DNA from: Agapetus fuscipes
Taxonomy: Eukaryota; Arthropoda; Insecta; Trichoptera; Glossosomatidae
Direction: 5' to 3'
NCBI GenBank assembly: GCA_951799405.1
Contig: OX637346.1
Coordinates: forward strand, 8,331,215 to 8,395,214
Length of the DNA: 64,000 bases
A program made the position numbers and the translations under genes. The notes below the pieces were generated by a model. The model had not been told where the DNA came from and searched no databases. It was given only the letters and a program-made list of their open reading frames with translations. Positions 3,351 to 56,117 of this stretch are shown here, one piece after another (position 1 is the stretch's first letter; the number at the start of each line of letters is the position of its first letter).

Positions 3351-3591
3351 TTTTTTTATTGATTGTAGAGGCATTAACTTTGTAATCGTTCATCATTAAT
3401 GATAAAGGAAAAACAGTTTTGTTTTCGATTACGTGAGTATATTTTTATAAACCACAACCGGTTTCGCAAACATCCGTTCGCATCATCTGATTAATTTATC
3501 CACCTGATGATGCGAACGGATGTTTGCGAAACCGGTTGTGGTTTATAAAAATATACTCACGTAATCGAAAACAAAACTGTTTTTCCTTTAT
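3351..3591. mobile_element. 241-bp inverted-repeat insertion with hammerhead motif (Penelope-like, non-autonomous)
   Basis: The insertion is flanked by exact 12-bp copies of CATCAATATTGT (3339-3350 and 3592-3603) and interrupts a family A copy. It opens with a T run that reads as a short poly(A) on the minus strand. Two perfect 89-bp inverted arms (3399-3487 and 3506-3594) surround an 18-nt spacer; the last three bases of the right arm overlap the direct repeat. The right arm plus spacer contains a complete hammerhead motif. Direct repeats of this length and a hammerhead at the terminus are known for Penelope-like elements. No reverse transcriptase is present, so this would be a non-autonomous derivative. 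Confidence 0.75.
3495..3549 (+). ncRNA. Hammerhead ribozyme motif HHR-a
   Basis: Type I hammerhead layout. Stem I is CCAC (3500-3503) with GTGG (3538-3541), plus an outer TTTAT/ATAAA helix (3495-3499 with 3545-3549). The core CTGATGA is at 3504-3510, followed by one extra base (T3511). Stem II is GCGAAC/GTTTGC (3512-3517, 3522-3527) closed by GGAT, then GAAA (3528-3531). Stem III is the self-complementary ACCGGT (3531-3536) and the predicted cleavage base is T3537. The inverted left arm lacks the first core bases, so only the plus strand carries a whole motif. A six-base palindromic stem III suggests activity as a dimer, as in other minimal hammerheads. Confidence 0.8.
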
Positions 3592-3630
3592 CATCAATAT
3601 TGTAATTAAGAATATATATTTTAGATTTAA

Positions 3631-4268
3631 AATTAAATAAAATTGGTGTACCTTCGAGCTCTGTTATGAAATGATTTATTTTGTCTATTTTCGACTTTAC
3701 CTTCCCCTTAAAATAACCCAAAACATTTCCACGTTTACCTACTTTTTATTTACATAAACTTTTCAAACCCTTTTAAGGGTTCTGCGAGGTGTATAATAAT
3801 AATACCACTCACCCCATCCAAACCTCCATTACTATGTTTTATTCATACTCTATAATTAATTTTAAAATCCTTAACAAAAAATAGAATTCACACAATGAGA
3901 ATTTTTTTGTTGCAAGTAATTTAATTAAAATATCTCCTACATATTTAGGTACTTTTTTATCTGAGTTAAGAATTCTAGAATTATAATGTTAATTTGATAT
4001 TTAAAAAAATAAAAAAATTTCATGGAATTTGTTATACTTTTAGATGCTCATCCCTTATTTTATTCTATTTCAGTCTTGTTATTTTTAATATCGTTGCTGA
4101 GGCGAAAAAAACCCTTCTCGTTTTTTCATAAATCATAATCATAAAATCAACGTTTGAATCACAAAAGACGTAAGGAATTTTAATAGGTCTTCGATGGAAA
4201 GTGGATTCTTGGAATGACTGAGCGCTATCATAACAGACAAGGGCATTTTAATGGCGGTAGATTAGAAC
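3631..4268. other. AT-rich stretch, nothing recognised
   Basis: No frame longer than about 50 codons and no recognised repeat. Confidence 0.5.
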
Positions 4269-4271
4269 TTA

Positions 4272-4400
4272 GGTCCAGTATTTTCAACGTTAGCTTATGT
4301 GACTTTAAACTAATGAAAAAAGGCTACCTACACGATTGACGTAAGTGCGTTCTTCTCATTCAGTATAAAGTCGCTATGCTAACGATGAAAATACCGGGCC
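4272..4400. mobile_element. 129-bp MITE with TTA target duplication
   Basis: Imperfect inverted arms of about 45 bp (about 4272-4318 and 4354-4400): the left begins GGTCCAGTATTTTCAACGTT and the right, reversed, begins GGCCCGGTATTTTCATCGTT. TTA flanks both ends (4269-4271, 4401-4403). A 3-bp TTA/TAA duplication with GG-start termini suggests a PIF/Harbinger-type MITE. Confidence 0.65.
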
Positions 4401-4631
4401 TTAGAGTTGTTTATCTAAAAGAGACTTGCCTACTATAATTACACAAACAATGGCCAAATGTCACACTTTCTAATACAGTGAAATATTTGCCTCTTTTGCA
4501 TTTCGTTTGGAACAAGCATTCCATAACCGAATAAGTATTTTTTAGAAGATCATTCTTAAAATATGTTTGTGAATAACTGGAACAGATTTATTAATATATA
4601 TTTTTAGTTCCTGAACTAGGGAAGCCTTTAT

Positions 4632-4770
4632 TTCAAGGAATGTGAAGTGATGATGATAATGTTAATGAAACTGAGATCATTTGTTATGAGTTGGTTGTTA
4701 TTTCTAGCTAGTTTTTTTTTCTGCTCCAGAATCAAATTCCCGACCGAGTTCATAATCTTAACCACTAGAC
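4632..4770 (-). mobile_element. Possible tRNA-derived SINE head
   Basis: On the minus strand TGGTCTAGTGGTTAAG (A-box-like) is followed about 30 bases later by GGGAATTTGATTCTGG (B-box-like). The layout matches a tRNA-derived SINE head and is closest to SINE-2. The rest of the body cannot be aligned, so this is a tentative call. Confidence 0.4.
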
Positions 4771-5017
4771 CACAGACTGATAGTAAAAGTGATTCAAGAT
4801 TATTTTGTACACAAATCATGTAGCATATTATTCTTTACTGTTCTACGTCCGTAGAACCTTTTCCAAGTTGAACCTTTCTCTGTATTTGAACCAATCAATA
4901 TTTTTCCGTCTCTAAGCAAGCCCTTTTTTTTTATGAATTTTCCTTGTAACCTGAGATAGAAGGAAATATTGATATTTTGTATTCAAACTAAGGGCCTTCT
5001 TTTGCTGATCTTATCTA

Positions 5018-5204
5018 ATCTTATCGAATCTAAGATGCAAAAATATGTAACATTAAGGATTCTCATTATATACAAACAAATCTCAAATGAACATACACCC
5101 TGCAACTCTTGCCGACCTTCCCTGAAACAGGGGTGACATTGGCAAAGTGAACCGTTTTCTACAGCATTGGTGATCAGCCGCATACCAACCTATAAATCAA
5201 GGAA
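5018..5204 (-). repeat. Repeat family A, reverse, internal deletion
   Basis: The tail shows a short tandem array (ATCTTATCTAATCTTATCGA), the best hint that the family ends in (AGATT)n. About 60 bp of the 3' half is missing, near 5075. The 5' end continues into GGAACATACACAACAT, which resembles the flank of the copy at 62.5 kb, so the parent element is longer than the common 250 bp. Confidence 0.85.
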
Positions 5205-5929
5205 CATACACAACATATTGTTTTTTTTAAATCAACGAATAATAATACAAGCCGATCCGATGTCAATTCATTTGGGCGGGCATGCAATGAGGATTCGATA
5301 CAAGTTCGTTTATTTTAAAACATACGATAATCAAAGCATTCGATTATTAAGGTTCCGCTTCATTATAATTGCCAACTGGCCGGCGTAGTTTATGATTCTG
5401 AATTTGCACAAACTTTTCCTTTGCGCAGTTGATTGTTTTTAACTTTTAGTTTTTGGAACGGGTTTTTAATAAGGTGGCGTTTGTTGCCCCTTCGAGAGGT
5501 TCTAATATTTTAACTCAGTTTTATTTAGTTAGTTTTTCATGGATATGAAAATATATTTAATAACTCTGTTGTAGTGTTTATAAGTTTTTTTACGATGTTT
5601 ACAGAAAATTATAGAGCGTAACACAAACATGTTATCAAAAAAAAACATTGAATTGATTAAATTGACTAAAAACTATGCATTATTGCCTACTCTTTCAGAC
5701 ACACGTTTACCAAGATCTATATAAAAAGGACATTGAAGGACCTGTTTCAAGAGCGAGAAATGAGGAGATAGACGGAGTGAAAGTCGACGTTGGGGGTACC
5801 AGACACGACACTAAATGAAGAAGAAGATACACTTGATTGTATAAACTTATCTATGCGTCAGACTGTATACTTTCTCTGTACCCTAGTTGTATGAGATTAT
5901 TTAAATTTTTATGTATGTCATTGTTATTT
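5205..5929. other. AT-rich stretch, nothing recognised
   Basis: The frame near 5167-5388 begins inside the repeat and has no recognisable domain. Confidence 0.5.
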
Positions 5930-6072
5930 ATGTTCATTTGAGGTTTGGATTTTAATTTGAAAGTAAACATGCAGCATTTGTAAGCGCAAACTTTAACGTG
6001 CCTGGTTGTTTGCACGCATTAAATATGAATTTTAAATGTTAATTTATCGTTGCAACTTAGATTATAGGCGTA
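5930..6072 (+). repeat. Repeat family A, 5'-truncated
   Basis: It holds the 3' half only, from GTTCATTTGAGGTTTGGATT to TTGCAACTTAGATTATAGG. Confidence 0.85.
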
Positions 6073-7049
6073 TACAAGCTCTTCATGCCTGAAACACAAA
6101 TTTTCCTAGTTAAGGCTCACGTATTTTTAGTTATGCATTTTTTTCAAATAAAGCATTATCTAAATTACCAGATTTATCGGATATTTTTTAATAAAGCATA
6201 GATCGATATGAAAGCAATAAATAAACATAAACATTCGGGCTTATAAGCAGTTCATAGACTGGTATCCAGCCGTAGATTTAGTCGGCATCGGATGAAATAT
6301 ATTTTCTCTCGTGAACCGTAGGACTGTAGCTAATCATTTATTTATGACTGCAGGCGCTTCTAAATATAACCCTTGTTTGGGCCGAAACTTGTAGCCTAGC
6401 TCCGGGCGGGCCGTGTTTCAGTACCATAGTTCTACGAGAGGTAACAGAAAAGGTGACATTCGTAGACTATTTATTATTTTGCTTGTAAAAATGTATTAAT
6501 TTTTTAGGCTTGTTGATAATATATTTGTTTTCATGTCTTAAACTAACAGCAAAATCAGTATTAGCTCATTAGACTAACATTTTTACGCATTCTGAGTATG
6601 ATTTGTACCTAAATTGTGAAAAAAGTATGTATAGACTTCTTTCTTTCTTTCATAACTGAAACCATATCCATACAACTGTAACATAGCTTTCATCTACGTA
6701 GCCCTACGTAAAAATAATATGATATCAAGGGTTTATTTTAGCCATCAAAAATAGGTAACCAACTCAGTATATGTACGTTATTCTCCATGCATTTAAATGC
6801 AGACTCTGTAGAGTTGTATCCACCTCTTCCTACTAATATCTGACATTTTTTTCTTCTAGCTCATTACCCAGAACTAAAAACTGTGGCCTATCAAAATCAT
6901 GCACCCCTGATATTTGCTGTGCACGAGAGACATGTGATATTAAAATATCTATGCGAAACTGATCGCATTTCAACACCTGACGTCACACTCAGTCACTTCG
7001 TTTTCCTACAAAGACTTTGAACGACAGACCACTCAAGGCGTAAGAATTT
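6073..7049. other. Unassigned stretch
   Basis: A moderately GC-richer patch near 6240-6450 carries no frame or repeat I recognise. The rest is AT-rich. Confidence 0.45.
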
Positions 7050-7055
7050 CATACC

Positions 7056-7110
7056 CCAAGTATCAAGTTTTACATGCAAACTCATTCAATGCGTTTCACC
7101 AACAAATGTA
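7056..7110 (+). repeat. Terminal fragment of MITE family B
   Basis: ATACCCCAAGTATCAAG and the following AAACTC/GCGTTT blocks match the left terminus of the family seen whole at 20.97, 36.57 and 52.73 kb. The right end is missing. Confidence 0.5.
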
Positions 7111-7129
7111 TTGAAACTGAAGTATTGCC

Positions 7130-7730
7130 TCTAGTAAGCCATTTATTTTTCTCCTCTCATCACAACAAGGGTAACTCGTAAGACGGCTCACAGTCATCCC
7201 TTTACAGTCGATATCAAAACTATGAGAACTTGGTGTTTCACGACTCATTCCATTGCCAAACTGCCCGCGTATGGAACGAGTTACCGGTATCTGTGTTTTC
7301 ACCCAAAATTAACCTTGCCCTATTCAAAACCGAGATCAATCGCCACTTCCTTTCAGTGTCTCAAAACAAAGCCAACACAACGAAACACACACTACAACAG
7401 TACGCAGCCACTGAACAGCCCTGCAATAAAGGATCAGAAACGCTATTCTGTTAAATTTCTTTAGAACTTAGAGCGACGAGATAGCGATTCGTGTCCAAAA
7501 ATAAGGTGTACTGTGATTTTTTTTTATCTATGGAGTTCTTTCGTAAGCGCTAGCAAACTTCGACTTGGATTGATATCCAAAGTGTAAGGAATTTAGAAGA
7601 ATAGCGCTTCAGGACATCAACTTCCACATCACCAGCACCTCTGCAGCACTACAACAAGTATCATAGACCCCTAGAGTCTCTAAAATCTAGGAAGTCTCCC
7701 GCACAGGGTTTCTAAAAACGCTATGGTCGA
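7130..7730 (+). pseudogene. LINE ORF2 C-terminus plus 3' UTR (CR1-like)
   Basis: Near 7222-7380 a frame reads SFHCQTARVWNELPVSVF then LFKTEINRHFLS, the usual C-terminal pattern of CR1/Jockey-type non-LTR retrotransposon proteins (W-N-x-LP followed by F-K-x-x-L/I-x-x-H-F/L). An upstream stop breaks the frame. The 3' UTR, with ACCTCTGCAGCACTACAACA near 7640 and AATCTAGGAAGTCTCCCGCA near 7690, recurs at 30.24, 35.40 and 52.27 kb, so the family left several 3' ends here. It is 5' truncated and not functional. Confidence 0.75.
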
Positions 7731-8160
7731 GTGTAAACTTGAAGTTTTATATTGGATTCGAGGCTGCGAGTGGGGTTGTGTAAGGGATGCGTGTGTAATG
7801 GAGTGAATCAATTTCCGTCCCGAGTCGCTTCGCACCACCCTACTGCTGGGAGCGGACGGACTAGGAAGGGTGAACTTAAAACGACACCGGTGGAAAAATC
7901 TTTTAAGTTGCCGGGATGCACTTTAAAGTTTATGATTCAAAAATATTATTTCATGAAGTTTTCAATATTCATGTTCGCTAAGATGGATATCGTATACTTT
8001 TCTAAATCTGCTGAAAATGACATGTTGGATGTAATTTTTTAATGTTTTAGGGAATATGTCGGTACATAATTTGAATGAGCTTAATACAACATTTTGAATT
8101 TTGAAAAGATTTTTGTGAAACACTGTGGAAATTCATTTTAAAAAATTGATTATTTTTCAA
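7731..8160. other. Unassigned stretch with an unsupported 96-codon frame
   Basis: An ATG-started frame at 7752-8042 is cysteine-containing but has no recognisable domain, and its second half is ordinary AT-rich sequence. I do not call it a gene. Confidence 0.45.
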
Positions 8161-8164
8161 TAAA

Positions 8165-8272
8165 AAATAAAAAAATAAAAGAAATTAAAAACTTTGTTTT
8201 ATTCCACTTTTATTGTTTTTGAGTATGTTACAAATATTTTCGGAATTACTTCCATCTTCGGGTAACTAACAA
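8165..8272 (-). mobile_element. Ribozyme-bearing mini-element, reverse
   Basis: On the minus strand a hammerhead motif (8227-8266) is followed by an A-rich tail containing AAAAGTGGAATAAAACAAAG. That resembles the tail GTGAATTAAAACTTTG found after the hammerheads at 52.15 and 54.35 kb. Boundaries are inferred and I found no clear target duplication. Confidence 0.55.
8227..8266 (-). ncRNA. Hammerhead ribozyme motif HHR-b (core substitution)
   Basis: Read on the minus strand: stem I GTTAC (8266-8262) with GTAAC (8231-8227), core CCGAAGA (U4 to C), one extra T, stem II GGAA/TTCC closed by GTAA, GAAA (8241-8238), self-complementary stem III AATATT, and T as the cleavage base. All helices pair perfectly though their sequences differ from HHR-a. 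The U4 change should weaken or abolish catalysis. Confidence 0.7.
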
Positions 8273-8831
8273 TTACTAAATTTAAACTTCAAAATTAAGA
8301 CAGTGGAGTGGGATCTATTGGTGGTAGTGGTAAGGGAGGGGGTAGAAAGGTAGATGTGTGGGAGGGAGATGGTGATTTTTGGGGCGGAGCTAATATTGTT
8401 AGGAGAGGAGATGTAATGGTGGGAAGTTGAATATTCAGCATAGAACTTTTATTTTTGTGTTTATCAATCTCTAATATTTCTAGTATATCCAATTTTTTTT
8501 TTTTTTTTTTTTTCTAACATTTTGCATAATCTAACTACTAAAAAAATAAGATTTTGTTCCAGAATACGTTCTTATAAAGTGTAAAATTTTCAGTCTTATG
8601 TAAATTAAGTATTAAACTTTCAGTGTCATGGTTGAATGTAGTTTTGTTTTTTTTTAAGGATTTCACGTTAGAACCATGTTGTATTTGCTTTTTTTATCTG
8701 CCGACTTTTAGTTTCCACGAGCAGGAAGCATTTTCATAGCTGTTTATCGAAGTAATGCAGTGGTCTTCGCATCCGCTTACTACTGAGTATTTTTAATGTC
8801 ATTTTTTTTATTTTAATGGAATCAATTCCTT
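8273..8831. other. Unassigned stretch with a poly(T) run
   Basis: A poly(T) run of about 24 lies at 8490-8513. A G-rich tract at about 8300-8400 (GGTGGTAGTGGTAAGGGAGG) gives a proline/serine-rich antisense frame that I judge to be low-complexity. Confidence 0.5.
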
Positions 8832-9072
8832 GACTTATAGGTTGGTATGAGGCTGACCACCCATACTGTAAAAAGTGGTTCACTTTGCCAATGTCACCCC
8901 TGTTTCAGGGAATGTCGGCAAGAGTTGCAGGGCTTATGTTCATTTGAGGTTTGGATTTTATTTGTAAGTACACAATCAGCATTTGTAAGCGCGAACTACA
9001 CGTGTTTGTTTGTGGGCATACATCTGAGAGCTTTGAATGAATATATCCTTGCAACTTAGATTATAGATAGAT
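8832..9072 (+). repeat. Repeat family A, well preserved forward copy
   Basis: One of the best copies, from CCTTGACTTATAGGTTGG through GTTTCAGGGAATGTCGGCA to TTGCAACTTAGATTATAG. It is a close match to the truncated copies at 47.7 and 50.5 kb (shared AACTACACGTGTTTGTTTG), so these three form a subfamily. Confidence 0.92.
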
Positions 9073-14499: not shown

Positions 14500-17400
14500 A
14501 AATTAAATCCTTAAAAACACAATAATACACAAGTTATAAATGCCATTTTTTTCATATCGAACATTCATTAATTCCAATAAAATCATGATAACTTTGCACG
14601 TTTGATCAAAAATATTTTCATCGAATTTTATCATTTGAAGAGTGAAGAATTTATTGAAATCAAAAATATTTAATTAACCAACTCATGTTTTCAATGTTTT
14701 ACTTCATTGAACCACCCACGGTTGATACAGCTTACGCGTCGTCCTTGATTTTTTTTCGACAAAGCTGTAATCAGGTACTTGTAAGCTCTTTCCACATTGT
14801 CCACCGGGCACTATTGTCTGTATACATTTAATTTTTTTCATCAAAAATTACATGGACCCTTGAGTTTTTTTTTCAAGGACCCTTCTGCGCCGGGCTTTTT
14901 GAAAACCTTTATGTTTATTCTCAACTGACAAATAGACTGACAGCTCAAAATATGAATTAGATCCTTTTTTGTTTTTGAATCGTGTAACGTGTTGTATTTT
15001 TGAAAATGTTCTGACGTGCACATTTTTAAATTAATTGAATCGCGAAAAAATACGCTACTTCCATGTCCTTGTTTTTTATTTATTTAAATTTATTTTCTTT
15101 TATCACAATTATTTTATAATACAGAATTTCAGTAAAATTTCTGTTCTCCATCTTAGTTCCACTTAGGTCGAAAACGCGTTAGTAATTTGTTTAAAGATTT
15201 TAATCTTTTTTAATAAATTTTATAGTGAAAATAAACAGTGTTTTGTTTGAATTCATCCAAAAATTATACAATTAAACAATATGAATTTTCACAGTGTCAA
15301 TACACAAACAATACAAAATATAATTAAGAATTTAATTTTAAAAATCATTTTATCGCTTTGTGTGTCAGTCACTTAGTTACATTGATGAAGATAAAAAAAC
15401 AAAACAACTCAAATAATAAAAAAAACCGCGTCAAGAGAATAATACAGCAAAATTAGAGGCGCAGCTGTATTTTCGATACATTTTTCCTTTTACGTGAATG
15501 GTTGAGCAATTATGAAATTTTTATGTAAATGGGTTTGATTAGTAAAAGGACCGTTTTTTCAAAAGTGTGGAACAAACTGTTATTTTTTTATAATTAAAAC
15601 GACTCAATTATTATTTTAACATATTCATAAAGACAATAAAATAAATAATTGTAAGTCTGTAGTTATTTCTTTAAAAAACTAGATCCACCATTTCGTGATT
15701 TTGTGCGTTGTTAGCTCGAATGAGATATGAAGCTATTATTTCAAAACATAATTATCTGTGAGACAATTAATTAAAATAAATAACTCGTAGGTATATAACC
15801 TTAGAACAAATAAGTCTTTCTCTATTTCAGTGTACGTAGTGAGGGAGGTCATTGTCAGGTTTTCTCTTTGATATATTGCACTGCACCCTGCGGTTTGTTC
15901 TTGGGAACAAAGCCACCAAGAAAGCAAATATCAATAGCACACATACACCCCTTTTGTTCACGGCGTTTCCATTTGCCGGCCATGATTGATAATATTTATT
16001 GAAAGTTTTGCTTTATCCTTTTTGCTTTCAAGTCTGAAGATTTAATTTATTTCATTTAGACGTCAGAAAAGTTTGCAGTGTAAATACTGCTTTGACGCTT
16101 CAATAAAGTTTTCATGAGAGATTTTTTAAGCCATGTTAAAAATGGTTTAATTATTATAAGAGTAAATCTAAATACGTACCTTACCTTATTTTTCACTTTT
16201 TCTTTGTATTCATAGTAGGTATGTACAATATTGTACTATTATTCTCATTCCATGAATGCTGTAACTAAGTATTAAGAAAATAATAAAAACAAAACAAAAA
16301 ATTACGTGGAGAATTTGAAAGATGAATTCGGTAGGGTGTGTAGGAAATATGTAGGTAGTTGCCAATTTCTTTGCTATTTTATAAATAAGAATTTATGCAA
16401 ATATATTTACAAAATATGTATAGATGGTTCTACGCGTGTTTGCTCGTTAACGAAAAAAAACATGACGATTAGTCACCTTATTTTTATTACTTACTTCTGC
16501 ATATTTGACTTCTTAATAACGAAGTTTTATTTTTTCATTACAGCCAGTATACAGGAGCTACCATCTTCGTTCATAGACATATTAAATTAATTTCAATACC
16601 ACCAGTCGGTATATTCCCAGCTCAATTCCTTTGCACAAAGTTCCTCAATTTTAGCACGTAGTTAACCAGAGGCCGGGCCGCAGTATGGCAGTGATTACCA
16701 CAGAATATAATGTGCCAGTCAGTGGACCAGTTATACCGACCATTTCAGAAACACCGCAAGTCATATCTTTCAAAACATATTTTGATTATTTTTGTGTTCT
16801 TTACCTTATATATCTGAAATGTATTTTTTCTACTGGTCATACCGCTTAACACGTAAACGTGAAAACTCGATCACACAAATGAAAATGTGATAAGTGTTTA
16901 TACTTTCGTGAATATTTTTCAAAACTTAATCGTTTCGAGTGAGTTCCTCACTACATGAGAATGTTAATCAGTATTTTTCATACTAGGGGAATACCATGTA
17001 ATCTCAGTCCAGTCAAGTCCAAAATTTCAAAAGATTTTATTGTAAAGAGCAATGCACACTTAGTTCATATTTGTCCTGAACAAGATGGTGTAGTCACTAT
17101 AAGAGAAATATTTCCTGAATTTCTTTCGATTTCTTTTTTTTTTCTAAAATGCATTTCGAGTAGTACTATAGCCCCCCACAAAATCTGAACAAGCTTGTCA
17201 AAGAGCTATTGACACAAAAATGGTTAACCTAAACACCTTGAAAATTATTAATCTCAAAAGAAAGATGTAAAAATCTTATGAACGTATTCAAATATTTGAC
17301 CTGGAAACCTGAAGAGTGAGTTTATATTACTAAATAGTATATTAGTATATGTACTGCTGAAGCAAGTACCTACATGTATTACTAAATAAAATATGTCAAT

Positions 17401-30319: not shown

Positions 30320-30557
30320 TGTACGAGCTTGGTCGTCGCTACAAAGCGCCAATACTCAAGCAAGACCCAGTTGCTGTAAGGCTGGATGGACCTTTGGTGA
30401 CCGGTCATTGGTAAAGGTTTATGAATTTTTCAACCCAGCGAAGAGCACATTCGAAATATAAATGGTATATTTTTGTGCTCCGCCGGGATCCGAATCCACA
30501 ACCTTCCATTTACGAGTCCGAAGTGTTGCCACTACGGACTACGGACCGGTCCAAGAT
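30320..30557 (-). mobile_element. SINE-2 copy joined to a 5S rRNA head
   Basis: The minus-strand tRNA-like module spans about 30480-30557 (B-box-like GGATTCGGATCCC). The shared body with CAGTTGCTGTAAGGCTGGAT follows, ending near 30323. On its 5' side the module joins a 5S rRNA-like sequence directly, making a 5S-tRNA composite SINE. Confidence 0.8.
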
Positions 30558-30674
30558 GCCAACGACACGCGTTGTACCTGAGCGGTTACCATCCAAGCAC
30601 TGACCACGCCCAATGTTGCTTAACTTCGGTGATCTATGGGAACCGGTGCTTTCAACATGGCTAACGTCGTTGAC
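30558..30674 (-). pseudogene. 5S rRNA-derived sequence (SINE head)
   Basis: On the minus strand this matches 5S rRNA along nearly its whole length (117 nt, usual about 119-120): start like GTCAACGACGTTAGCC, a centre with GATCACCGAAGTTAAGC, and an end GTACAACGCGTGTCGTTGGC. Substitutions are spread throughout and the 3' end runs on into SINE-2, so it is better read as the promoter head of a composite SINE than as a working 5S gene. Confidence 0.85.
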
Positions 30675-33129: not shown

Positions 33130-33371
33130 GGCCGTTTGTCCACCGCACGCCGTCACCGTCACGTCACTGGGAACGAGATGACGGCGCCGAAGTAGCGGTA
33201 CATGTTATGTATTTATTGTATTGCCTGGTTATAGGCAATACAATACATAACCTATTACCAGCAAAATCGGTCGCGGTGGACAAACGATCGCCGTCACATC
33301 AATTAAACTCGGCCCGAAATAATCTCGTTCTCGGTGACGTGATGGTGACGGCGTGCGGTGGACAAACGGCC
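33130..33371. mobile_element. GC-rich Harbinger-like MITE, first of tandem
   Basis: Termini GGCCGTTTGTCCACCGCACG and its reverse complement at 33360-33371. TTA precedes the left end (33127-33129). On the right the repeat is followed by TTCCACGGCC and then the TTA that starts the next element. A central hairpin (ATTGTATTGCC with GGCAATACAAT) lies at 33214-33243. Confidence 0.75.
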
Positions 33372-33384
33372 TTCCACGGCCTTA

Positions 33385-34206
33385 GGCCGTTTGTCCACCG
33401 CACGCCGTCACCGTCACGTCACGTCAACGAGATGACGGCGCCGAAGAAGCGGCACATACATTTCGTATAGTAATGTATGTAGCCGCGTGTCCACCGGACG
33501 CCGTCCCGTCATCCCGGCCATTCCCGGCCGCCGAGATTTCGAGTAGATCGGCGTGACCGCTAGATCGTCACCGAGATTTTGACGGGCCCATGTGCGGCCA
33601 ATACAAAACATGCGTGAACTTGTCCACACTGCCGCCGCGTCGCAGCTATCTATCATTAAATATCATATCATAGCTATCTATCATCAAATATAACATTCGT
33701 TAGTTGTAATAAAAATGGCCAAGAATTTTAAATACGATATCTATAAATTTAAAGAAGTTATAGAAAGCAAAGAATGCTTGTGGGATAAAAACAAGGATGT
33801 GCCCAAAGATAAAATTTTGCGTAAAAATGCATGGCGCGAGGTTTGCGCCTTTTTAGAGCCGAACTTTGGGGATATTGAGGAACAAACTAAACCAACGGAA
33901 TCGGTCGCGGTGGACAAACGATCGCCGTCACGTCATATTAAACTCGGCCCGAATAATCTCGTTCTCGGTGACGTGACGGTGACGCCGTCACCGTCACGTC
34001 ACCGGGAACGAGATGACGGTGCCGAAGAAGGGGTACATGTAATGTATTTATTTTATTGCCTGGTTATAGGCAATACAATACATAACCTATTACCAGCGAA
34101 ATCGGTCGCGGTGGACCAACGATCGCCGTCATATCAATTAAACTCGGCCCGAAATAATCTCGTTCCCGGTGACGTGACGGTGACGGCGTGCGGTGGACAA
34201 ACGGCC
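33385..34206 (+). mobile_element. Harbinger-like element with MADF frame, second of tandem
   Basis: It begins GGCCGTTTGTCCACCGCACG after TTA (33382-33384) and ends GTGGACAAACGGCC before TTA (34207-34209). This fits the 3-bp TTA duplication of PIF/Harbinger elements. Inside are a variant terminus (33481-33520, GTGTCCACCGGACGCC), a MADF-like frame (33715 on), and from about 33898 to the end a sequence nearly repeating the first MITE, including its hairpin. It reads as a composite in which a MITE copy inserted into a longer element. No DDE transposase is present. Confidence 0.75.
33715..33900 (+). CDS. MADF (Myb/SANT-like) domain fragment of a Harbinger-type element
   Basis: The ATG lies in a good context (AATAAAAATGGCC). 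The first 60 codons read FKEVIESKECLWDKNKD, then LRKNAWREVCAFLEPNFGDI. The spaced W in CLWD, the charged linker and NAWREV are the MADF pattern, a Myb/SANT-like DNA-binding fold that accompanies the transposase in insect PIF/Harbinger elements. The domain stops after about 60 residues, before the usual last helix. The open frame then runs to 34356 through terminal-repeat sequence, which is not real coding. It is probably a first exon or a truncated gene; no intron or second gene can be shown. Confidence 0.7.
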
Positions 34207-34429
34207 TTAGGGTTACATTTTTATGTTGACATGAGCGGCTATTCTCTTGATAATGGTGTGATTACACCGAAAGCACTCGAAATCATAAACACGTTGTTTT
34301 ATTTTTACATTATTAATAAGTTATTATTATTAATCACTAGCAACTGTATTAGATGATCATTTAGCCTTTCAAAAGCTTACAAGAAAACGTGAATGGTCGA
34401 CTTAAATAAGGCATTACGCAACGCAACTA

Positions 34430-40989: not shown

Positions 40990-43193
40990 CCTTCCTTTTA
41001 TTTAAGAGCTGCATTGGCAGCTTAATTTATACCCAAGCATTTTTTTTATCATCAGAAATCACAAGTTCAAAGAAAAACTGTTTCAATAACCAAGTCGTTG
41101 ATTTTATTCGTCAATATTTTTCAAACACAAAAGTAACTTTGTATTTGTATTGTGTGAGTTTTTATGACCCAACCTCATACCGACCTACACTGCTTTATTA
41201 ATCAAGAAACAAAAAAGTACCAAAAAATATTTGTAACATTTAGTTGTTGGTCATTTACTGAGAACCTTTTGGACCCTTTGTGTAGTGGAGACAGATTCCC
41301 CATTTGCAGCGGCTGCGGTGAAGTGCTGTTGATTTATCATTTCCTCTCCATTTTCTTTGGTTGTTTTCCCTCCGCGCTTGCAATTCGCGAAAGTTCCCGC
41401 CAATAATAATAATAATGTATGTAGCAAAGTTTCAATTGGCGGTTAGTTTAGCGGAACGATGGAGTGATTCAATTTTGTTTGTTATTGATAAAACGTGGAT
41501 TTTATGGATGTGTTTTTCTGTTGGTTATTGCAGTTTCCACTGTATGGATCGTGAAATTCGTGAAAAAAAAAAAAACCTACTTTTGACTGTCAAAAAAATG
41601 AATTTATTTGTTAAAAAAAAGTGTAAGAAATAAATACCTGATAATGTCGAAGACACCTTATCATATCCGTAAAATGGTATCATACCCACACACCTTTTTC
41701 AAATATTTGTATTACCTTGAAAATGTCAAATTATTGTTAGATTGTTTTATTGACGTTAATATGAACTTAACAATGAACGATTTTCAAGATATTTGTTTTA
41801 AATGAGTCGTATAGAAACAAAGAAAGAAATAAATTATTTTGTTTTCGATAATTCGACAAACATATAGAAACACATTAATCATTTCTTCGCCGTTTCCATA
41901 CATTCATCTTATTTACCAAAGAATCGTTAATTTTTACCTTTGATTCCGTACGACTTGTTTCCATCACCAATCTATAAATATATATGACTTGTTTTGAAAT
42001 TCAAGTAAGTATCCTCTGCATAAACTTGTCGCTCATTGTGACAAAATAACAACATATGAAGTCAAGTTACTTATTTATCCATAATTGAATTTAATCTATC
42101 TCTAATCTGTCGTTTTAAGCATTACGATATGCTTGAAATATCTTTTTTATTCGCCTCAAATCTCCTTCTTAAAAGTAATTCCGAAGCAAAGATAACTATG
42201 AGCTTTAAGCTTATTAATAATCCATCTTCGTACACTTAACGAGTCCTCCGCAGCATTGCTTTATAGAGATGAATGGATGTTAATGAATCAGGATGCTGGC
42301 GGTAAATTTTCTGGACATTTGCCTGTGTAGGCGAAATACATCGAAAAGCTTTTTGTTCGACTTTCGTGTGCGTAGACCAGTGGCTCCTAATCATTCTCAA
42401 CCAGGAAAACATTAGTTGATTCCGTTTGACGATGAAACTTTTTTTACTATTTTGTTACCACCGCTGACCACTTTGACTGTTTTGTTTTGTCCAGGTACCA
42501 ATCTGTTATTTACAGAAACCACAATATCCAAGAAAAATTTTCCATTCTAATCTGAACCCAACCTTCGTCCAAGACTTAAGTCAATATTTAAAAAAATTAA
42601 AAGTATGCATATGGGATTTGAGTCTTTTATTTTTTGAAGACGGCTTAACCTGTGACTTACATTTTTATTCACAGCTACACGCACATTAGATACGATTGAT
42701 TCGAAGTGATTTCAAAACTGGTTTTTAATTAGTAGCCAAGCAAATACTCCGTTTTCAAATGTTAGTTGTAGTAGAAAACCATGCAATGATCTTTTATATG
42801 TGTTGCATGCCTCTCGTACGAACCATTTTCTAAGGTTTTATAGAGGTACGCGAAATACTGGCGAAGAACCGCTGGCTTAGACCGTCTACACTCTACGGTA
42901 TTTGCTACGCCGGGTTCCTTTCTTACTCAAACCCAGGCTTAGCTGCCCGTCTGCTTTTTGCGTATTGAAACTGGCAGACCTTAAAACACGTGTTGGGTTT
43001 AACTTTTTTCACCTAAAACCCTTCTCCCTGTTTTTGCACATGAAACATTTAAGTTTACACGTTGATCATACATTGTGGATGTTAATGTATTTTTTATTAT
43101 GTTCAGATAAAGGAAAAATACACAATATGAGTATATTTAAGCTTAAAGTATCTTTTTTTGGTGTTTTAATGTTATTTTTAGGAATTCTTAATT
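40990..43193. other. AT-rich stretch, nothing recognised
   Basis: Frames at 41164-41805 and 42902-43195 have no domain I recognise. No family A copy occurs. Confidence 0.45.
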
Positions 43194-43250: not shown

Positions 43251-43659
43251 ACTCTTCCCCAGAAATTCGTTTTTCTCAACACCATGGTTCGTAAAATCTA
43301 CTTCTATTAATTTTATAGGAAAAGTTATGCTGTTTTTTGCACATTTTGTAGATATGCTATGTGGGTAAAATAATGATTTCGTCATGTCAATAATAATCAG
43401 TGATATTGGATGAAAATGATAGATGGATAGTACTGAAAGTAAAAGTAAGTGAAAGTAGTACTGAAAGTTTTGAGATTGATTTGGACTGCTTGCTTTCAAT
43501 ATTTTACTAACAAATATTTATTGGGATTCTCGATATTTAATTTGTCTACTATTTATACCTGTTATGAAACAAGGGGGAGAAGCTTGAATATATACAGAAG
43601 AAATTCTCAAAGACTACTCAGAATATCTGATTAGAAAATTATTTGAATGATCACTTTTT
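43251..43659. other. Unassigned stretch
   Basis: The 103-codon minus frame over 43188-43499 is not supported by any motif. Confidence 0.4.
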
Positions 43660-43912
43660 CTTGACTTATAGGTTGGTATGAGGCTGACCACCCATACTGT
43701 AATAAATGGTTTACTTTGCCAATGTCACCCCTATTTCAGGGAAGGTCGGCAAGAGTTGCAGGGCCTTTGTTCATTTGAGATCGGGTTTTTATATTGTAGG
43801 CCCACATGCGGCATGTGTGAGCGCGAAATTATGCGTGTCTGCTTGTGGGAATGCATTTAATATGAACCTCAAATAATACATATCTTTTTAACTTAGATTT
43901 AGATTAGATCAC
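43660..43912 (+). repeat. Repeat family A, full forward copy
   Basis: From CTTGACTTATAGGTTGGTAT to AACTTAGATTTAGATTAG. GATCAC lies on both sides (about 43649 and 43907), a possible short target duplication. It groups with the 60.65- and 62.55-kb copies (shared GCGCGAAATTATGCGTGTCT-type block). Confidence 0.92.
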
Positions 43913-45180: not shown

Positions 45181-45184
45181 AGAT

Positions 45185-46765
45185 AGGCCGCGCAAAAAAA
45201 AAGCAGGAACTGAAAATAGAGTGCGGGGTTTTCCTCTGACCGCGACCACCGTGATAAATTCTTATTTGCATTAGGGCGGGCTTAGCGTTCAGTTTTTTGC
45301 GACCCCCGACTATTTAACTTGGCGTAACTTCCGACTGTTTATTGTGGGAGTGAATCGATCCCTTTTTATGTTCGCAACCCTTTTCCTTCGCGCACCAATA
45401 CAACGTGAAAATTCCATTCGCGTACAAATTTGTAATAAAATAATATGGTTTCCAGCTTTGAACCTACATACGTAATGCAAGGAAATAATGTTAATTGAAA
45501 ATTAATTCAATAAGTGTTTGTTTTTATTTTTTGTTGTACTTAAATCATTAAACATCCCGGTTCCAGATTATTTTCGTACCTCTTCAGTGAAAATAAACAA
45601 TCACTATAGCAATGTTTACTTTTCGATGATGCTGCACAAAATAGAGATTTTATACTTCTGACAACCCACTGTCTCAGGTTCTTGAACCAGAGTGTTCGCT
45701 TTCAACCCTGTCATTTCTTTATGCTTCCCTTTATGATGAGGTGTAGGAGCCAATGTTACTTGTTTCTGATTGCGAACCTAAAATTAAAAAAAACATATAA
45801 TATATAAATAAGTGAATTAAAACTCTGTTTTATCCATTTGAATTTAAAAAAAAAAAAAATGGACTTAACACTAAAAATAAGTTTTTTGACGGATATGGGA
45901 AATATTTAATATTTATGGAGCTACTCGTATATGGACACATTTGTTTATTAATGTTGAGGGTCTATTTAGATGTCCGTTTACTATGAATAAATTATATTTA
46001 ATCCCATTGCCTCCAGTTTGCAAAGCTATAAAAACTTTCGTCCCACCTAAAATGTGTAAGTATTCCCAGAGAGAATTCAATAACGTCCTACAATAATCTT
46101 AATTAAATCGTGCACACTCGTATCACAATAATGGAATAGTGATGTTAACAAGCCGGGAAAATCTCATCCCTAGTGTCCGAAAGTTGTGAAGTAATTCGTT
46201 CTCTCTCGACGTCCATCCCATTTGTACAATATGCAATCTTTCGTCCCTCTACGCCCCATGATAACAAGGCCAAATCCTTAAATTAAATTGAAATCTGTCA
46301 GATTAATTTCCAGTCGCATTAATGGTAGAAATACCGAAATGTATTCATCAGTCCTCCGTCTCGTGCGAGCGAGCATTGGCCCGGCTGCTCCCTGGGAGGG
46401 AATAGCATCCCGGTCCCAGAATTCCCGCGGTTAGCCAGCCGCTTTACGTATAATTGATTATCTTAACAAAGACGGCGACAGTCCGGGTCGGGAATATTCT
46501 AATTCCCGATGCGAGACCTTTGTGTCGGACCACATTGTCCCTGCCAAGAGTCGGGATTTCAGACCCAGTTCGGGAGGTGAGGATTTTTCCATAAGCGGGC
46601 CTCTTCAAAAGCAATTATTGTACAAGGGAAACAATCGAGTAATATTATTATTGCTGGCTCTTAAATCGTGATGGAATGCCGCGCGTCTGAGGGCGGACCT
46701 CTCGATGGGAATGTATATAAAACGTAGCTCAGTTGAAGGCGCGTCTATTTAATGCTGAAATAATT
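45185..46765. other. Repeat-free region with two GC-richer islands
   Basis: 45190-45420 and 46330-46700 are GC-richer, contain none of the repeat families seen elsewhere and have no usable frame. Such islands in repeat-dense DNA can be conserved regulatory sequence, but nothing here proves it. Confidence 0.35.
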
Positions 46766-48790: not shown

Positions 48791-48799
48791 ATTTTGGGT

Positions 48800-51377: not shown

Positions 51378-51384
51378 TTCTTCC

Positions 51385-51475: not shown

Positions 51476-51592
51476 AAGAAGCTTGTAATATAAATTATTC
51501 TCTCCTTGAATGTTTTTCTTACTTACCTAGTGAGGTAAGCAGGACAGCCCCATAGTTTTTGATGCCTTGATCATATCGGTAGGTAGCAAGCC

Positions 51593-51718
51593 ATAAAACA
51601 TGGCCGCTGGTGAATAGTTGATCAGGATGTTATTTTTGTTTCTGTTCAAATCATATAAAAAATTGTATTTATAATTTTTGACCGCGAGATCAGCTGTTCA
51701 CACGTGGCCATGTTTTAT
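51593..51718. mobile_element. MITE family C copy
   Basis: ATAAAACATGGCCGCTGGTG is inverted as CACACGTGGCCATGTTTTAT, with GTTGATC/GATCAGCTGTTC inside. Length 126 bp. A second copy lies at 57.15 kb. Confidence 0.65.
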
Positions 51719-51965
51719 TGACATCTTTATGATACGCACTTGCGTATGTGAAAACTTTTCACGTCAGACTTTCATTAAATAAATAAAATAACATGATCTT
51801 TGGGAAAAAGGGGATTGCCTCCCATCTCACAATACAGTAATTGGCGTAAAGCTGATCGCTTTATGAGTGAAAATAAAAATACTAATCGTCAATGCTATCC
51901 TTTGAAAGATTTCCAAGATCTTTTCAAGAGGTTTTGAATATTAATTTATAAAAATATTTGTAACA
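51719..51965. other. Unassigned AT-rich stretch
   Basis: Nothing recognised between the MITE and the next hammerhead. Confidence 0.4.
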
Positions 51966-51970
51966 ATTAT

Positions 51971-52008
51971 GCTCCTGAAGATGCCTTATTAGGCGAAAAC
52001 GTTTGAGC
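51971..52008 (+). ncRNA. Hammerhead ribozyme motif HHR-c, intact core
   Basis: Stem I GCTC (51971-51974) with GAGC (52005-52008), core CTGAAGA (51975-51981), an extra T, stem II GCCT/AGGC closed by TATT, GAAA (51995-51998), self-complementary stem III AACGTT (51998-52003), cleavage base T52004. The A-rich tail AATTAAAACTTTGTTTTTTC follows at 52026. Every core position is as expected except for the added base after A9. Confidence 0.85.
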
Positions 52009-52091
52009 AAAAATAAAATAAAAAATTAATTAAAACTTTGTTTTTTCCTATTTTTAAGGGTTTGGTGGTTTACACAGTGAAAGTCCATTGT

Positions 52092-52235
52092 ATATTAATT
52101 AAATAAACAAAGTTTTAACAATTAAATTGTTAATTTTGAATTGTCTTTGTCCTGATGATGCCTTGTAGGCGAAAGTGCTAGACAAAAATTAAAAAATATA
52201 AAAGTGAATTAAAACTTTGTTTATTTAATTAATAT
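52092..52235 (+). mobile_element. 144-bp unit: hammerhead between 27-bp inverted repeats
   Basis: 52092-52118 and 52209-52235 are perfect inverted copies (core TTAAATAAACAAAGTTTTAA) flanking a hammerhead at 52146-52186. The right arm is the tail seen after other copies here (AATTAAAACTTTG). The layout, inverted arms around a ribozyme, recalls the 3.35-kb insertion. Confidence 0.7.
52146..52186 (+). ncRNA. Hammerhead ribozyme motif HHR-d, intact core
   Basis: Stem I TTTGTC (52146-52151) with GACAAA (52181-52186), core CTGATGA (52152-52158), an extra T, stem II GCCT/AGGC closed by TGT, GAAA (52171-52174), stem III AGTGCT (52174-52179, one G-U pair), cleavage base A52180. Stem I is six perfect pairs and differs in sequence from HHR-c, 175 bp upstream. 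Confidence 0.85.
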
Positions 52236-52271
52236 ATTTGTTTTTTTCCAATTAAATTTAAAAAAAAATCC

Positions 52272-52458
52272 AAGATCAATCGCCACCTCCATTCAGTGTC
52301 TCAAAACAACAGAAAACAACACTACGCAGCTAAAAGCCCTGCTACAGTGAATCAGGGCAGCAACCGCCACATCACCATCACCTACACATTACTACAACAG
52401 GTGCCATAAAGCTCCAGATTCCTGAAATCTAGGGAGCCGCAAAGAATTCCTTAAAAAA
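52272..52458 (+). repeat. LINE 3' UTR copy
   Basis: ATCAATCGCCACCTCCATTC (end of the coding part), TCAGTGTCTCAAAACAACAG and GAAATCTAGGGAGCCGCAAA match 7.34-7.72 kb. Confidence 0.75.
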
Positions 52459-52726
52459 AAGATGAATCAATTATGAAGTAAAACCTAAATTTACACTTAT
52501 GTTTTGATGCAAGTGACCCAGGATGATTTTTTTTTAAATTCAGCATAAATGGGTCATTTTTGGTAGCGTATTTTTCTGTTAAAAGCAGCTCAAAATTTGG
52601 TAAAAATATACAGTAATATATCAAAGTGGCACATATTTTTCGCTCCAATTAAACATAAATTCACGCCGCACTTAATCACACGAATGTTCCCTGGGGTCGC
52701 CCTTCCTGCGATATATGAGGAGCTTT
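52459..52726. other. Unassigned stretch
   Basis: Nothing recognised. Confidence 0.4.
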
Positions 52727-52868
52727 CAGTGCCCCAAGTACTAAACTTGTCGTTTCAAAAATATATGGAAATTATAGCAAGCGATCCTAATGAGGGTTTC
52801 AGTTTCTACACATTTTGCGGTTAACGCTATGGTTGAGTTTTAACTTTCTGTTTTATACTTGGAGTATG
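52727..52868. mobile_element. MITE family B copy with both ends
   Basis: TGCCCCAAGTACTAAACTTG at the left and TTTTATACTTGGAGTA at the right are inverted. GCGGTTAACGCTATGGTTGA is the inner right block. Confidence 0.65.
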
Positions 52869-54224
52869 GGTGTCAAGTTTCCGCTATAAAGGCGACAAAA
52901 ACCAACGCGTTATGGGGATATTTCAATAATTTCTTTCTCATAGTCATAGTTTTTGTATTTTTTATCAATCCAAAAAACTTTGCTCATTTTTAGAAAAAGA
53001 AAGCGTAATACACACGCAATATTTTTTAAACACAATAGAACTTCGATTATCCGAACTAATTGGGTGACGAGGGTGTTCATAAAATTGAATTGTTCCGATA
53101 ATCGAATTGTATACTTTTGTGTGTAAATCTACCAACAAAAAACATAATCATTTCATGTATGAAATGGTTGTATTTAAGCACTAATTTTATTGATTTGTAC
53201 AAGGTGTGTTTATAAAATTAACGTATAAAGAAATCCTTCATTTTGGTTTATCGATGCGAGCCTACCTTTCTCGTAGGTACGCGCAGCTCAACCACGTTTT
53301 TTTTTTCATAGCATATTATACTGGTCGCTTTCTTCTTGTACTTCAAACTATCGGAAAGCAACAAACAAACTATCCGTTCGGTCGATCGATGGTTCAGCTC
53401 ACTCTTCTGTATTTTCATTCATCATCATCTTCTAAAGACTGGGCATTTTTGTGCCAGACATCTGTCTCAGTTGGATGCCATCCTCTTTAGCTGCGAATAG
53501 GATGAGACATCTATGAGCTGCTTATAATCCTATGAAGTATGAAGTTTTTGGACGACCTATCGACTTACCGACCTGAAGTTCTTAGACCTCTTGTTCGTCT
53601 TTCCAGGTTTTTTCCTTTCAATATATTGCTAAGGGGTACCATATCTAATCAAGTATCTAATTGGTATTCTCTTTATCGATTTTAATAAATATGTCAACAG
53701 TAATTGTACTGGAGCATCTTCCGACTGATAAAACGTAACAATAAAACCAGTTAGCTTTTGTTGGTGATATTTAGAGCTCCGGCTGTCACATGACGTGTAA
53801 TATAACGTCATGAGTCCTTTGCGAGCCCGCCAGGCTCATACCTATTCCCTTATCTCTCGCCCCCACCCTCGCCCCTGCAGCCCCTACCCTCCTCTATGCT
53901 TTTCATACTTTCGCGAACAACCCAAACATACCCTCGCTTATCATTCAACTTATTTGTTTCAAACTGTTATTGTGAAACAGTATTGTGCTTCTTTCGTGTC
54001 TATTTATTTGACCTTTTCTTTTAACACATAACTACTAAAAATGCAATAATTCGCGTCGACTATTTACAGAAAAATTAACTCCAAATTGTATAAATATGGC
54101 TTTTCTTTCTTAAAATGTGAATACGAAGACAATGAAGGGTTACATCAATAGATGATTGTTTTCATAATTTTATTGCTGTGGAATCAAAATATCCATTTGG
54201 TGGACATGTATGTAGAAAAAATGG
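52869..54224. other. Unassigned stretch
   Basis: The frame at 53206-53490 has no domain. The CCCACCCTCGCCCCTGCAGC-type tract near 53860 is low-complexity. No repeat family recognised. Confidence 0.4.
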
Positions 54225-54335
54225 ATGATGAACGACTGCCAAAAAGAGCGTACTAAAGGGAATGTCAAAGGTAAACGTGGAAGGGGAAGACCGAGGAAAG
54301 AATTGATGGATACAATAAGTGAGATTGCAAGTAAC

Positions 54336-54440
54336 CATTCTGCTCTTGAAGATGCCTCATTAGGCGAAAATATTCGAGCAAAAAAAAAAGAATAAAGTGA
54401 ATTTAAACAATGTTTTACCATTTATATTTTTAAATATTTA
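54336..54440 (+). mobile_element. 105-bp hammerhead-bearing insertion with 16-bp target duplication
   Basis: TGAGATTGCAAGTAAC (54320-54335) and TGAGATTGCAAATGAC (54441-54456) flank it, differing at two of 16 positions. The insert holds one hammerhead, an A-run and the GTGAATTTAAACAATG tail. It is the clearest delimited unit of this class in the window and lacks any protein-coding capacity. The duplication length fits Penelope-like elements. Confidence 0.8.
54341..54380 (+). ncRNA. Hammerhead ribozyme motif HHR-e (C3 substitution)
   Basis: Stem I TGCTC (54341-54345) with GAGCA (54376-54380), core TTGAAGA (C3 to U), an extra T, stem II GCCT/AGGC closed by CATT, GAAA (54366-54369), self-complementary stem III AATATT, cleavage base C54375. 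The helices are perfect; the C3 change should reduce activity. Confidence 0.75.
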
Positions 54441-54590
54441 TGAGATTGCAAATGACTGGATTACACAGAGTGAGAAATAATAAAAAAGAGTATGCATGAA
54501 CAGAGTGATGAATGTCGAGGAGATGAAAGCATTGTGCAAAGAAATAACTCACCATCCTTAGCGAAATGGTGACTGGATACAAGAACAGTT

Positions 54591-55144
54591 GTTTTTACGT
54601 TCATTAGGCTCATTTCGTATTTGATTTAAATTATTCCGCTTGTTTCAGCAATAAAGCATTGTTTTCAACCGTTTTTATATCATGATACTTACATCATGGC
54701 CGGCTTTGGTTAAATGAATTCAAACGTGCAGATTTTACGAAACGTTCTCAAGTTTTTTGTGCACATGAATGCCCGAGATGAGTGAAAAATAATTGTTTCA
54801 ATCGAAAACGTGACATGAAAACCTGCGAGTCATCAGAATAAATATTCGCAGGGGGAATTCGTTCTCGAAAAGAGAAAATCAGACGCGAAAAATCCCTTTC
54901 GCATTCCAACAACAATTTATTTAGACAAAAATCCTTATTTATATGGAAGCAAAGGGGGAGCATGATGGTACGTATTATTTCAGCGTTCTGAATGTGCGGC
55001 CCCCTTTCGTGACTTTCTTATAATTGGGATGATTCAGCAAGATATGAACATTGTGAGCAGAGTGCTTCGTTTTTATTTTTGTTTAAGTATAAAATATGAA
55101 ATTACAATTTTTAGTACCGATAAAATATAAATTTACGAAACAAT
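54591..55144. other. Unassigned stretch
   Basis: Nothing recognised. Confidence 0.45.
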
Positions 55145-55345
55145 ATTTTACAAGGATTAATTTTGTGAGCGCTATTTTTGTTTGAATCACACCCAACTGG
55201 CCTCACCAACTGGAAAGCTTTCGTCGCGCTAAAAAACTTAATTGTTAAACATGACACAGTTGCTGTAAGGCTGGATGGTTCTTTGGTGACCGGTCTACTG
55301 GTGAAAGCAAATAATTTTTTCAACCCAAGAAAGAGCAAATTTTTA
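55145..55345 (-). mobile_element. SINE-2 copy lacking the tRNA head
   Basis: Tail GTGAGCGCTATTTTTGTTTG, body CACAGTTGCTGTAAGGCTGG and TCTTTGGTGACCGGTCTACT. It stops near CAACCCAAGAAAGAGC, before the tRNA part, so it is 5' truncated. Confidence 0.8.
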
Positions 55346-56077
55346 AATTATGATATTAGATACAACGTTTTTCTCATGATTTGACTAAAGCAACTTATTT
55401 AAGTGTATATATTACATGTTTTTGCTGTTATTCTAACCATTTTATGTAGACTTCGAATTTTTTCCACTTCATGAAGCAACAGATTGAAATAAAATCCATT
55501 ATTTTTTTTGTCTAACATCTATACGTATAATAGATATGATTACGCCAAGATTCACCATTGATTAAAACTTTAAAATGAAGAAGTTTGACGTTTATAATAT
55601 GTATCTGTACTTTAAAAAACAGCTTTTATTTATACCAACCATATGTGATACCTGGTAGGTATTCTTGTTTGCATTAGATTTTTATAATATCTGAAATCTC
55701 GGAAATTATCAATAATTCATCGTACATCGTAGAATATGTCTGCATCTAAAATAAGCAACCTGTTCTCAACTGTGCATTGAAACACTTAACAAAACACGCT
55801 ATTGTTGCATTAGTTTGTAAAGTTATTTCTGTACGCCTTATTGATTCCTTCACGGAAAGCGTTCAAGTTACTAGAATGCCAAGAGAAACCTGTAAACTAT
55901 GTATAACTTTGTTCTATAGCAGAGAAATCATCCATTTTAACTTGCATATTTTGTGAAGCTTATTTAAGTGCAGAATTTATTTAGAAAGTCATACTTGTTG
56001 CCTATCTTAAATAGAGAAGGCTAAAAATAAAAATTAAAGGAAGGCATTCATCCTTAATCGTCGTACAGAATGGGCGC
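55346..56077. other. AT-rich stretch, nothing recognised
   Basis: No supported frame or repeat. Confidence 0.5.
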
Positions 56078-56117
56078 CTCCTGAAGACGCTGCCCACGAC
56101 GATAACAAAACGTCGAG
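56078..56117 (+). ncRNA. Hammerhead-like motif HHR-f, decayed
   Basis: CTC (56078-56080) pairs with GAG (56115-56117); core CTGAAGA (56081-56087); an extra C; stem II GCT with AAC (one pair lost); AAAA in place of GAAA; short stem III ACGT; cleavage base C56114. Two G-to-A changes separate it from a regular motif. The GTAAGTCCTCCTACAATGGT that follows may be the element's own tail. Confidence 0.55.

Follow-up and report, generated by a model that had tools for sequence, protein, structure and literature searches.

Five rare hammerhead motifs with a loopless stem III, probably left by Penelope-like insertions, in the trichopteran Agapetus fuscipes

The window analysed here is a 64,000-nucleotide stretch of the Agapetus fuscipes genome (assembly GCA_951799405.1, contig OX637346.1, positions 8,331,215 to 8,395,214 of the forward strand). 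We found that it holds five hammerhead ribozyme motifs that are real, rare and structurally consistent. In 5/5 copies the position of stem III is occupied by a self-complementary hexamer without a loop. Because such a stem has no loop within a single copy, cleavage likely needs two copies. We consider it probable that the motifs come from short, strongly 5'-truncated insertions of Penelope-like elements (PLEs), or of their non-autonomous relatives, and that they cleave only as pairs of copies. A preliminary description of this DNA had claimed six hammerhead motifs with covarying stems. Five of them were recovered by a structural descriptor, a base-pairing table and a covariance model, whereas the sixth, at 56078-56117, was not.

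Each of the five copies was found with both the descriptor and the covariance model. Copy A (51970..52009, plus strand; 54.7 bits with the covariance model) reads TGCTC-CTGAAGA-T-GCCTTATTAGGC-GAA-AACGTT-T-GAGCA, and its core is complete apart from one extra T. The same is true of the core of copy B (52146..52186, plus strand; 46.4 bits), which reads TTTGTC-CTGATGA-T-GCCTTGTAGGC-GAA-AGTGCT-A-GACAAA. The predicted cut sites lie 3' of T52004 in copy A and 3' of A52180 in copy B, that is, 176 nt further on; these two bases, the H17 positions, had been correctly placed from the start. Copy P (3500..3541, plus strand; 37.1 bits; H17 = T3537) reads CCAC-CTGATGA-T-GCGAACGGATGTTTGC-GAA-ACCGGT-T-GTGG. 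It lies inside the broader limits first proposed, 3495-3549, and its core is again complete apart from the extra T. Thus, the core C3 U4 G5 A6 N7 G8 A9 / G12 A13 A14 / A15.1-U16.1 / H17 is complete in 3/5 copies (A, B and P), and not in two as had been stated. Copy C (54341..54380, plus strand; 51.2 bits; H17 = C54375) reads TGCTC-TTGAAGA-T-GCCTCATTAGGC-GAA-AATATT-C-GAGCA. It carries a single core change, C3->T, and judging from this substitution is probably inactive. Copy D (8227..8266; 47.4 bits; H17 at 8232) had been listed without regard to its orientation and is a hammerhead on the minus strand only, where it reads GTTAC-CCGAAGA-T-GGAAGTAATTCC-GAA-AATATT-T-GTAAC. Its only core change is U4->C, a substitution described as compatible with viroid infectivity (PMC3088659). 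In all copies stem I comprises 4-6 bp and is open, with no loop or bulge, giving a type I-like order, and stem II has at least 3 bp and begins with a conserved G10.1-C11.1 pair.

In the descriptor, the core CTGANGA could deviate at no more than one position and one extra base was allowed, stem II had to have 3 bp or more, and GAA was obligatory. These elements had to be followed by a loopless palindromic stem III starting with an A-T pair, by H17 and by a stem I of at least 4 bp. On both strands of the window it matched five sites, with cores at 3504, 51975, 52152 and 54346 on the plus strand and at 8261 on the minus strand. In 60 first-order Markov simulations of the window, 0.017 sites were obtained on average and never more than 1. 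When no core mismatch was permitted, three sites remained, as compared with 0 in the 60 simulations. Moreover, a close variant of the descriptor gave 0 matches in the reversed window and 0 in the 442,089 bases of 49 viral loci. Because the motifs were known before the descriptor was drawn up, these figures measure rarity and are no blind test.

Further candidates were rejected. The site at 56078-56117 has AAA where GAA belongs, lacks GAAA and offers 0-1 bp of stem II. It is missing from the descriptor matches and from the 29 covariance-model rows (E up to 10), and only a background nhmmer row touches it (1.6 bits, E 19). The site at 34242-34283 (20.6 bits, E 0.0054; T-GGTG..CACC-GAA) was not accepted, having no self-complementary hexamer, and neither were the weak covariance-model rows at 42307-42347 (17.4 bits) and 45561-45592 on the minus strand (17.2 bits).

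In the alignment of the five copies, every cell that has letters on both sides forms a standard pair (59/59). Both sides change in 9/12 pairs, a result that 0/500 shuffles reach, and sliding the partners by 1-3 columns lowers the pairing to 24-42%. RNAalifold, run without a given structure, predicts stems I and II and additionally pairs the extra U with G12 (U-G). Hence, the three helices of a hammerhead are present with covariation, stem III being formable only between two copies. Since the copies were chosen partly for their pairing, the covariation table alone overstates the case. Evidence independent of this choice comes from the rarity test, from the homology that A, B and C show in sequence, and from the structure of the insertions.

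Regarding sequence homology, copies A and C are 85% identical over 66 nt. When held out in turn, A, B and C were each found again with a profile built from the sequences of the remaining four copies (E ~1e-11 to 1e-10). Copies A, B and C are therefore one family by sequence, and P and D join them by structure and by the extra T. In addition, a downstream tail, GTGAATTAAAACNNNGTTT (GTGAATTAAAAC-NNN-GTTT), or a near match to it with 0-2 mismatches, follows 4/5 copies. Counted against RTGAATTWAAACNNNGTTT, the tail of copy A (52025..52043, plus strand) has 1 mismatch, those of B (52204..52222, plus strand) and C (54397..54415, plus strand) have 0, and that of D (8189..8207, minus strand) has 2. 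The window contains 7 matches to this motif, where 1.28 would be expected. A lone tail-like stretch, GTGAATTAAAACTCTGTTTT, lies at 45804..45831 on the plus strand, with 0 mismatches at 45812-45830 and no intact ribozyme upstream. By its sequence it is possibly a decayed sixth copy, and no duplication of at least 7 nt was found around it. The matches at 8118-8136 (minus strand) and 15225-15243, with 2 mismatches each, are probably due to chance.

The structure of the insertions is clearest for copies C and P. Copy C begins 11 nt into a 110-bp insertion (54331..54440, plus strand) flanked by an 11-bp duplication, TGAGATTGCAA, at 54320-54330 and 54441-54451. A repeat of that length was found in 24/3000 random placements of the same geometry. 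Copy P lies in a 241-bp insertion (3351..3591, plus strand) flanked by a 12-bp duplication, CATCAATATTGT, at 3339-3350 and 3592-3603, matched in length by 44/3000 placements. Both duplications are AT-rich and contain ATT. For copy P we could also identify an empty site. When its flanks are joined and one repeat copy is removed, an uninterrupted paralogous repeat at 2501-2580 matches them right through the junction, with 62/80 positions identical. Copy P further takes part in a near-perfect palindrome (3395..3598), whose 93-nt arms, 3395-3487 and 3506-3598, are 99% complementary with an 18-nt spacer between them. In the left arm, ribozyme and tail are present in antisense, without the 5' strand of stem I and C3-U4; this antisense arm scores 42.1 bits with nhmmer and 19.2 bits with the covariance model. 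Around copy B, an inverted repeat (52091..52236) has 28-nt arms at 52091-52118 and 52209-52236 that are 100% complementary. With its target duplication and empty site, the palindrome at 3.4 kb is a candidate for a product formed naturally by two-sided target-primed reverse transcription.

Two side observations concern the surroundings of these insertions. The host repeat of copy P belongs to a highly repeated family of up to ~245 nt, present on both strands in many copies that are 60-97% alike (2217-2498, 5074-5243, 8825-9069, 43657-43899, 60775-60944, 62564-62845 and others). Copy C interrupts an open stretch (54131-54330 / 54452-54651) that reads KGKRGRGRPRKELMDTISEIA..., an ending of a kind that occurs in retrotransposon open reading frames (ORFs).

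PLEs are described as carrying minimal type I hammerheads that lack helix III, for which cleavage as dimers has been proposed (PMC7761336; PMC7229834). The copies have this very form of hammerhead. They resemble the minimal hammerheads of PLEs and Terminons in their type I order, in having no usable helix III in a single copy, in occurring as dispersed short copies and in having the ribozyme close to the end of the insert (PMC7761336, PMC11167929). The difference is that no PLE enzyme was found among the 100 longest of 241 ORFs in the window. For this reason, and because the copies are too short to hold such an enzyme, we label them PLE-type and not PLEs. PLEs can occur as tandem or partial-tandem copies, which give pseudo-LTRs (long terminal repeats); here, only A and B are arranged in tandem, and they are mutually diverged.

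The Anolis Penelope-like element PAc offers a model for how such copies may arise. As described in PMC11167929, reverse transcription of PAc initiates internally, cutting occurs preferentially at ATT and extension takes place on both DNA strands. Its ribozyme overlaps the start of the ORF, which opens at stem II, past G8, with 26 bp remaining to the cut. We propose that two copies, in tandem or on two transcripts, would pair through their hexamers. Each core would then combine the 5' strand of stem I, the core, stem II and the 15.x strand of one copy with the 16.x strand, H17 and the 3' strand of stem I of the other. Each core would cut after H17, releasing an RNA of unit length, and reverse transcription would begin, as in PAc, at a short distance past the ribozyme. 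An internal start of this kind would explain why the insertions extend from just ahead of the ribozyme to 50-60 nt beyond it. Likewise, a PAc-like preference for ATT would give AT-rich duplications containing ATT, and extension of both cut DNA strands would make the palindromic copy at 3.4 kb a product of two cDNAs of the same RNA end. PAc resembles the present copies in its AT-rich targets, in ending soon after the ribozyme and in the distance from start codon to cut (26 bp, versus 23-28 nt from an AUG in the core here). It differs in that reverse transcription starts 111-118 bp into the ORF, at an AC-rich stem-loop (PMC11167929), whereas P and C end ~50-60 nt past the ribozyme, by a small A-rich hairpin motif, and no long open frame follows the AUG.

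Pairing between copies is consistent with the hexamers themselves, each of which fits itself in 6/6 positions. In 9/10 cross combinations 3-5 of 6 positions pair, and C and D, with an identical hexamer, pair in 6/6. When two copies were co-folded, the double-hammerhead arrangement was the minimum-energy structure for A-A and for P-P. A comparable palindromic stem III region, permitting a dimer, is described for the repeat-type putative hammerheads of Aedes aegypti (PMC3088659). There, stem III and loop III together form a 10-bp dimer stem, unlike the loopless hexamer found here; this comparison is by description only.

Several results weigh against the PLE reading. The preliminary description had named the lack of any hit above threshold to the Rfam hammerhead covariance models as the computational outcome that would speak against the hammerhead motifs, and this is what we obtained. 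No Rfam hammerhead family matched at its gathering score or at E up to 10 in the whole window, the same models gave no match in 51940-52260 alone, and all five copies are missed. In view of the loopless stem III hexamer, we do not regard this miss as disproving the motifs. By way of positive control, a looped type III hammerhead of viral contig L002 that shares the extra U was detected by RF00008 with 39.5 bits and E 1.4e-7, a score that itself lies below the gathering score of 48.5. Dimer-type hammerheads can thus escape every Rfam hammerhead model yet yield to a simple descriptor with a loopless stem III. Sequence profiles are also unfavourable for two of the copies. Held-out P (E 0.011) and held-out D (E 0.15 in full, 19 for the ribozyme only) did no better than the best outside match, and no profile of the tail alone clearly separated a held-out copy. 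The 9-bp repeat TCCAAGATC (51912-51920 and 52269-52277), which would delimit a possible 348-bp element with copies A and B (51921..52268, plus strand), is not significant, being equalled by 268/3000 random placements, and no convincing target duplication was found around copy D. With an E cut-off of 0.01, the 100 longest of the 241 stop-to-stop ORFs yielded no reverse transcriptase (RT) or GIY-YIG domain, a search that is weak because the one clear RT remnant, at 57585-58262, was also left without a Pfam match.

Further points on the same side concern folding and ribozyme function. The minimum-energy dimers of B-B, C-C and D-D are plain extended duplexes, and a loose criterion for a symmetric dimer was passed by 127/500 shuffles of A and 150/500 of P. 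As a quarter to a third of shuffles pass it, dimer formation as such is no evidence. The hexamers of the tandem copies A and B match in 5/6 positions only, with no predicted binding, and the full 241-nt transcript of P folds as one long hairpin with the ribozyme buried. The dimer reading is therefore supported by the hexamers and by precedent; the folding energies do not carry it. Finally, in the account of PMC11167929 the PAc ribozyme was dispensable for insertion in vitro and cleaved only with the protein present, which weakens any claim on a role for the ribozyme.

Other origins have to be weighed against a PLE-type one. The copies could be decayed or minimal animal non-LTR retrozymes. In this family, units of 170-400 nt are repeated in tandem and their type I hammerheads process circular RNAs; A and B would form a dimeric unit for a 176-nt circle. 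The tandem order of A and B fits this idea, as do the spacing of their cleavage bases, 176 nt, within the published ~170-400 nt, the type I order, the low GC content and the 52-kb segment, which folds better than 100/100 shuffles (z -3.3). However, copy A is closer to C (85% over 66 nt) than to its tandem neighbour B. Moreover, C is the sole copy in the 110-bp insertion, which has a target duplication to itself, and P is the sole copy in the 241-bp one. The tandem-repeat list of the window contains no multimer array; one pair, at 176 nt, falls within the ~150-450 bp of the tandem repeats expected of a retrozyme. The published retrozyme hammerheads have a helix III, short in amphibians, and contacts between loop 1 and loop 2 (PMC7229834), whereas stem III is loopless here and the open, unbulged stem I shows no loop for such a contact. 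We therefore regard a retrozyme origin as rather unlikely.

A different origin could be sought for the 3.4-kb copy alone, as a DNA transposon of the foldback or miniature inverted-repeat transposable element (MITE) type, in which a palindrome had captured a hammerhead. Its 93-nt, 99% complementary arms, 18-nt spacer and 12-bp flanking duplication are what such an element would show. However, the arms consist of ribozyme and tail, the left duplication does not abut the arm (44 nt lie between 3350 and 3395), copy B has a partial version of the same inversion, and PAc is reported to extend both DNA strands (PMC11167929), so that we hold this origin to be highly improbable. Least credible of all is that the AT-rich genome yielded these hammerhead-like strings by chance. 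The missing Rfam match would agree with it, as would the fact that one of the six motifs first claimed was indeed a chance one, and the further weak covariance-model rows, the best outside the family being 34242-34283. Against it stand the five sites where 0.017 were expected, the identical extra T in every copy, the homology of three copies by sequence profile and the target duplications.

The extra T lies between A9 and G10.1 in 5/5 copies, though the descriptor allowed its absence. Searched on both strands, the window contains the exact string CTGAWGATG three times, and by coordinate each occurrence is one of the three complete cores. In the hammerhead of chrysanthemum chlorotic mottle viroid (CChMVd), where the plus-strand ribozyme has an extra A10 at this same place between A9 and G10.1, replacing the A by U is reported to raise the trans-cleavage rate 3-4-fold, U being the fast version (PMC3705267). 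By analogy, the extra U here would be expected to be tolerated or helpful, although this is a viroid ribozyme with an unrelated sequence context.

The extra T also creates an AUG at A9. From the A of this AUG to the cut there are 24 nt in A, 23 in B, 24 in C, 24 in D and 28 in P. It may be that the extra U was kept since A9-U10-G10.1 let the core double as the start codon of the element, and that the palindromic copy P is a fossil of two-sided priming of reverse transcription; we put this forward as speculation and think it quite doubtful. An ORF start after G8, as in PAc, would by inference fit an A9-U-G start codon. If the idea were right, cleavage 23-28 nt downstream would sever the coding RNA from its start codon and turn a messenger into a template for insertion. 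No coding frame survives, as the frames from the core AUG to the stop run 3 codons in A, 7 in B, 3 in C, 18 in D and 12 in P. In A and C the stop falls inside the loop region of stem II, which argues against the start-codon idea for that subfamily. If the extra U were general in Penelope-type hammerheads, this deviation, which has been discussed until now for viroids, would have a testable reason in the start codon and the faster core.

Hammerhead-like folds with an extra U were also seen in 15/49 of the viral loci. They number 16, of which 13 are type I and 3 type III (L001, at 3185 and 3452; L002, at 7625; L009, L020, L024, L025, L028, L029, L031, L033, L036, L038, L040, L042 and L044), and the contigs holding them are phage-type. 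Because the patterns used to fetch these loci demanded GATG, the folds show existence, not frequency. Exact motif patterns gave 0 matches in the genome contigs searched and 0, 6, 0, 43 and 1 stretches in viral contigs, and a text search of the literature for the motif letters together with hammerhead showed nothing relevant among the 20 of 60 papers listed.

The gene and repeat content of the window is animal-like. A 5S rRNA match lies at 30557-30674 on the minus strand (67.2 bits), and the window also holds DDE_1 and MADF remnants. The RT remnant at 57585-58262 (minus strand, 226 aa) has relatives that include RT-domain proteins from fish and hagfish, and across 93% of its length it shares 97% identity with a protein from an ENA contig of 839 bp. 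A GC-richer stretch contains a 227-nt direct repeat (33147-33373 and 33982-34208, 95%) and strong inverted repeats that draw weak microRNA-family scores. Near the end of the window, an inverted repeat (63025-63237 / 63356-63568) has 213-nt arms that are 93% complementary and lie 118 nt apart.

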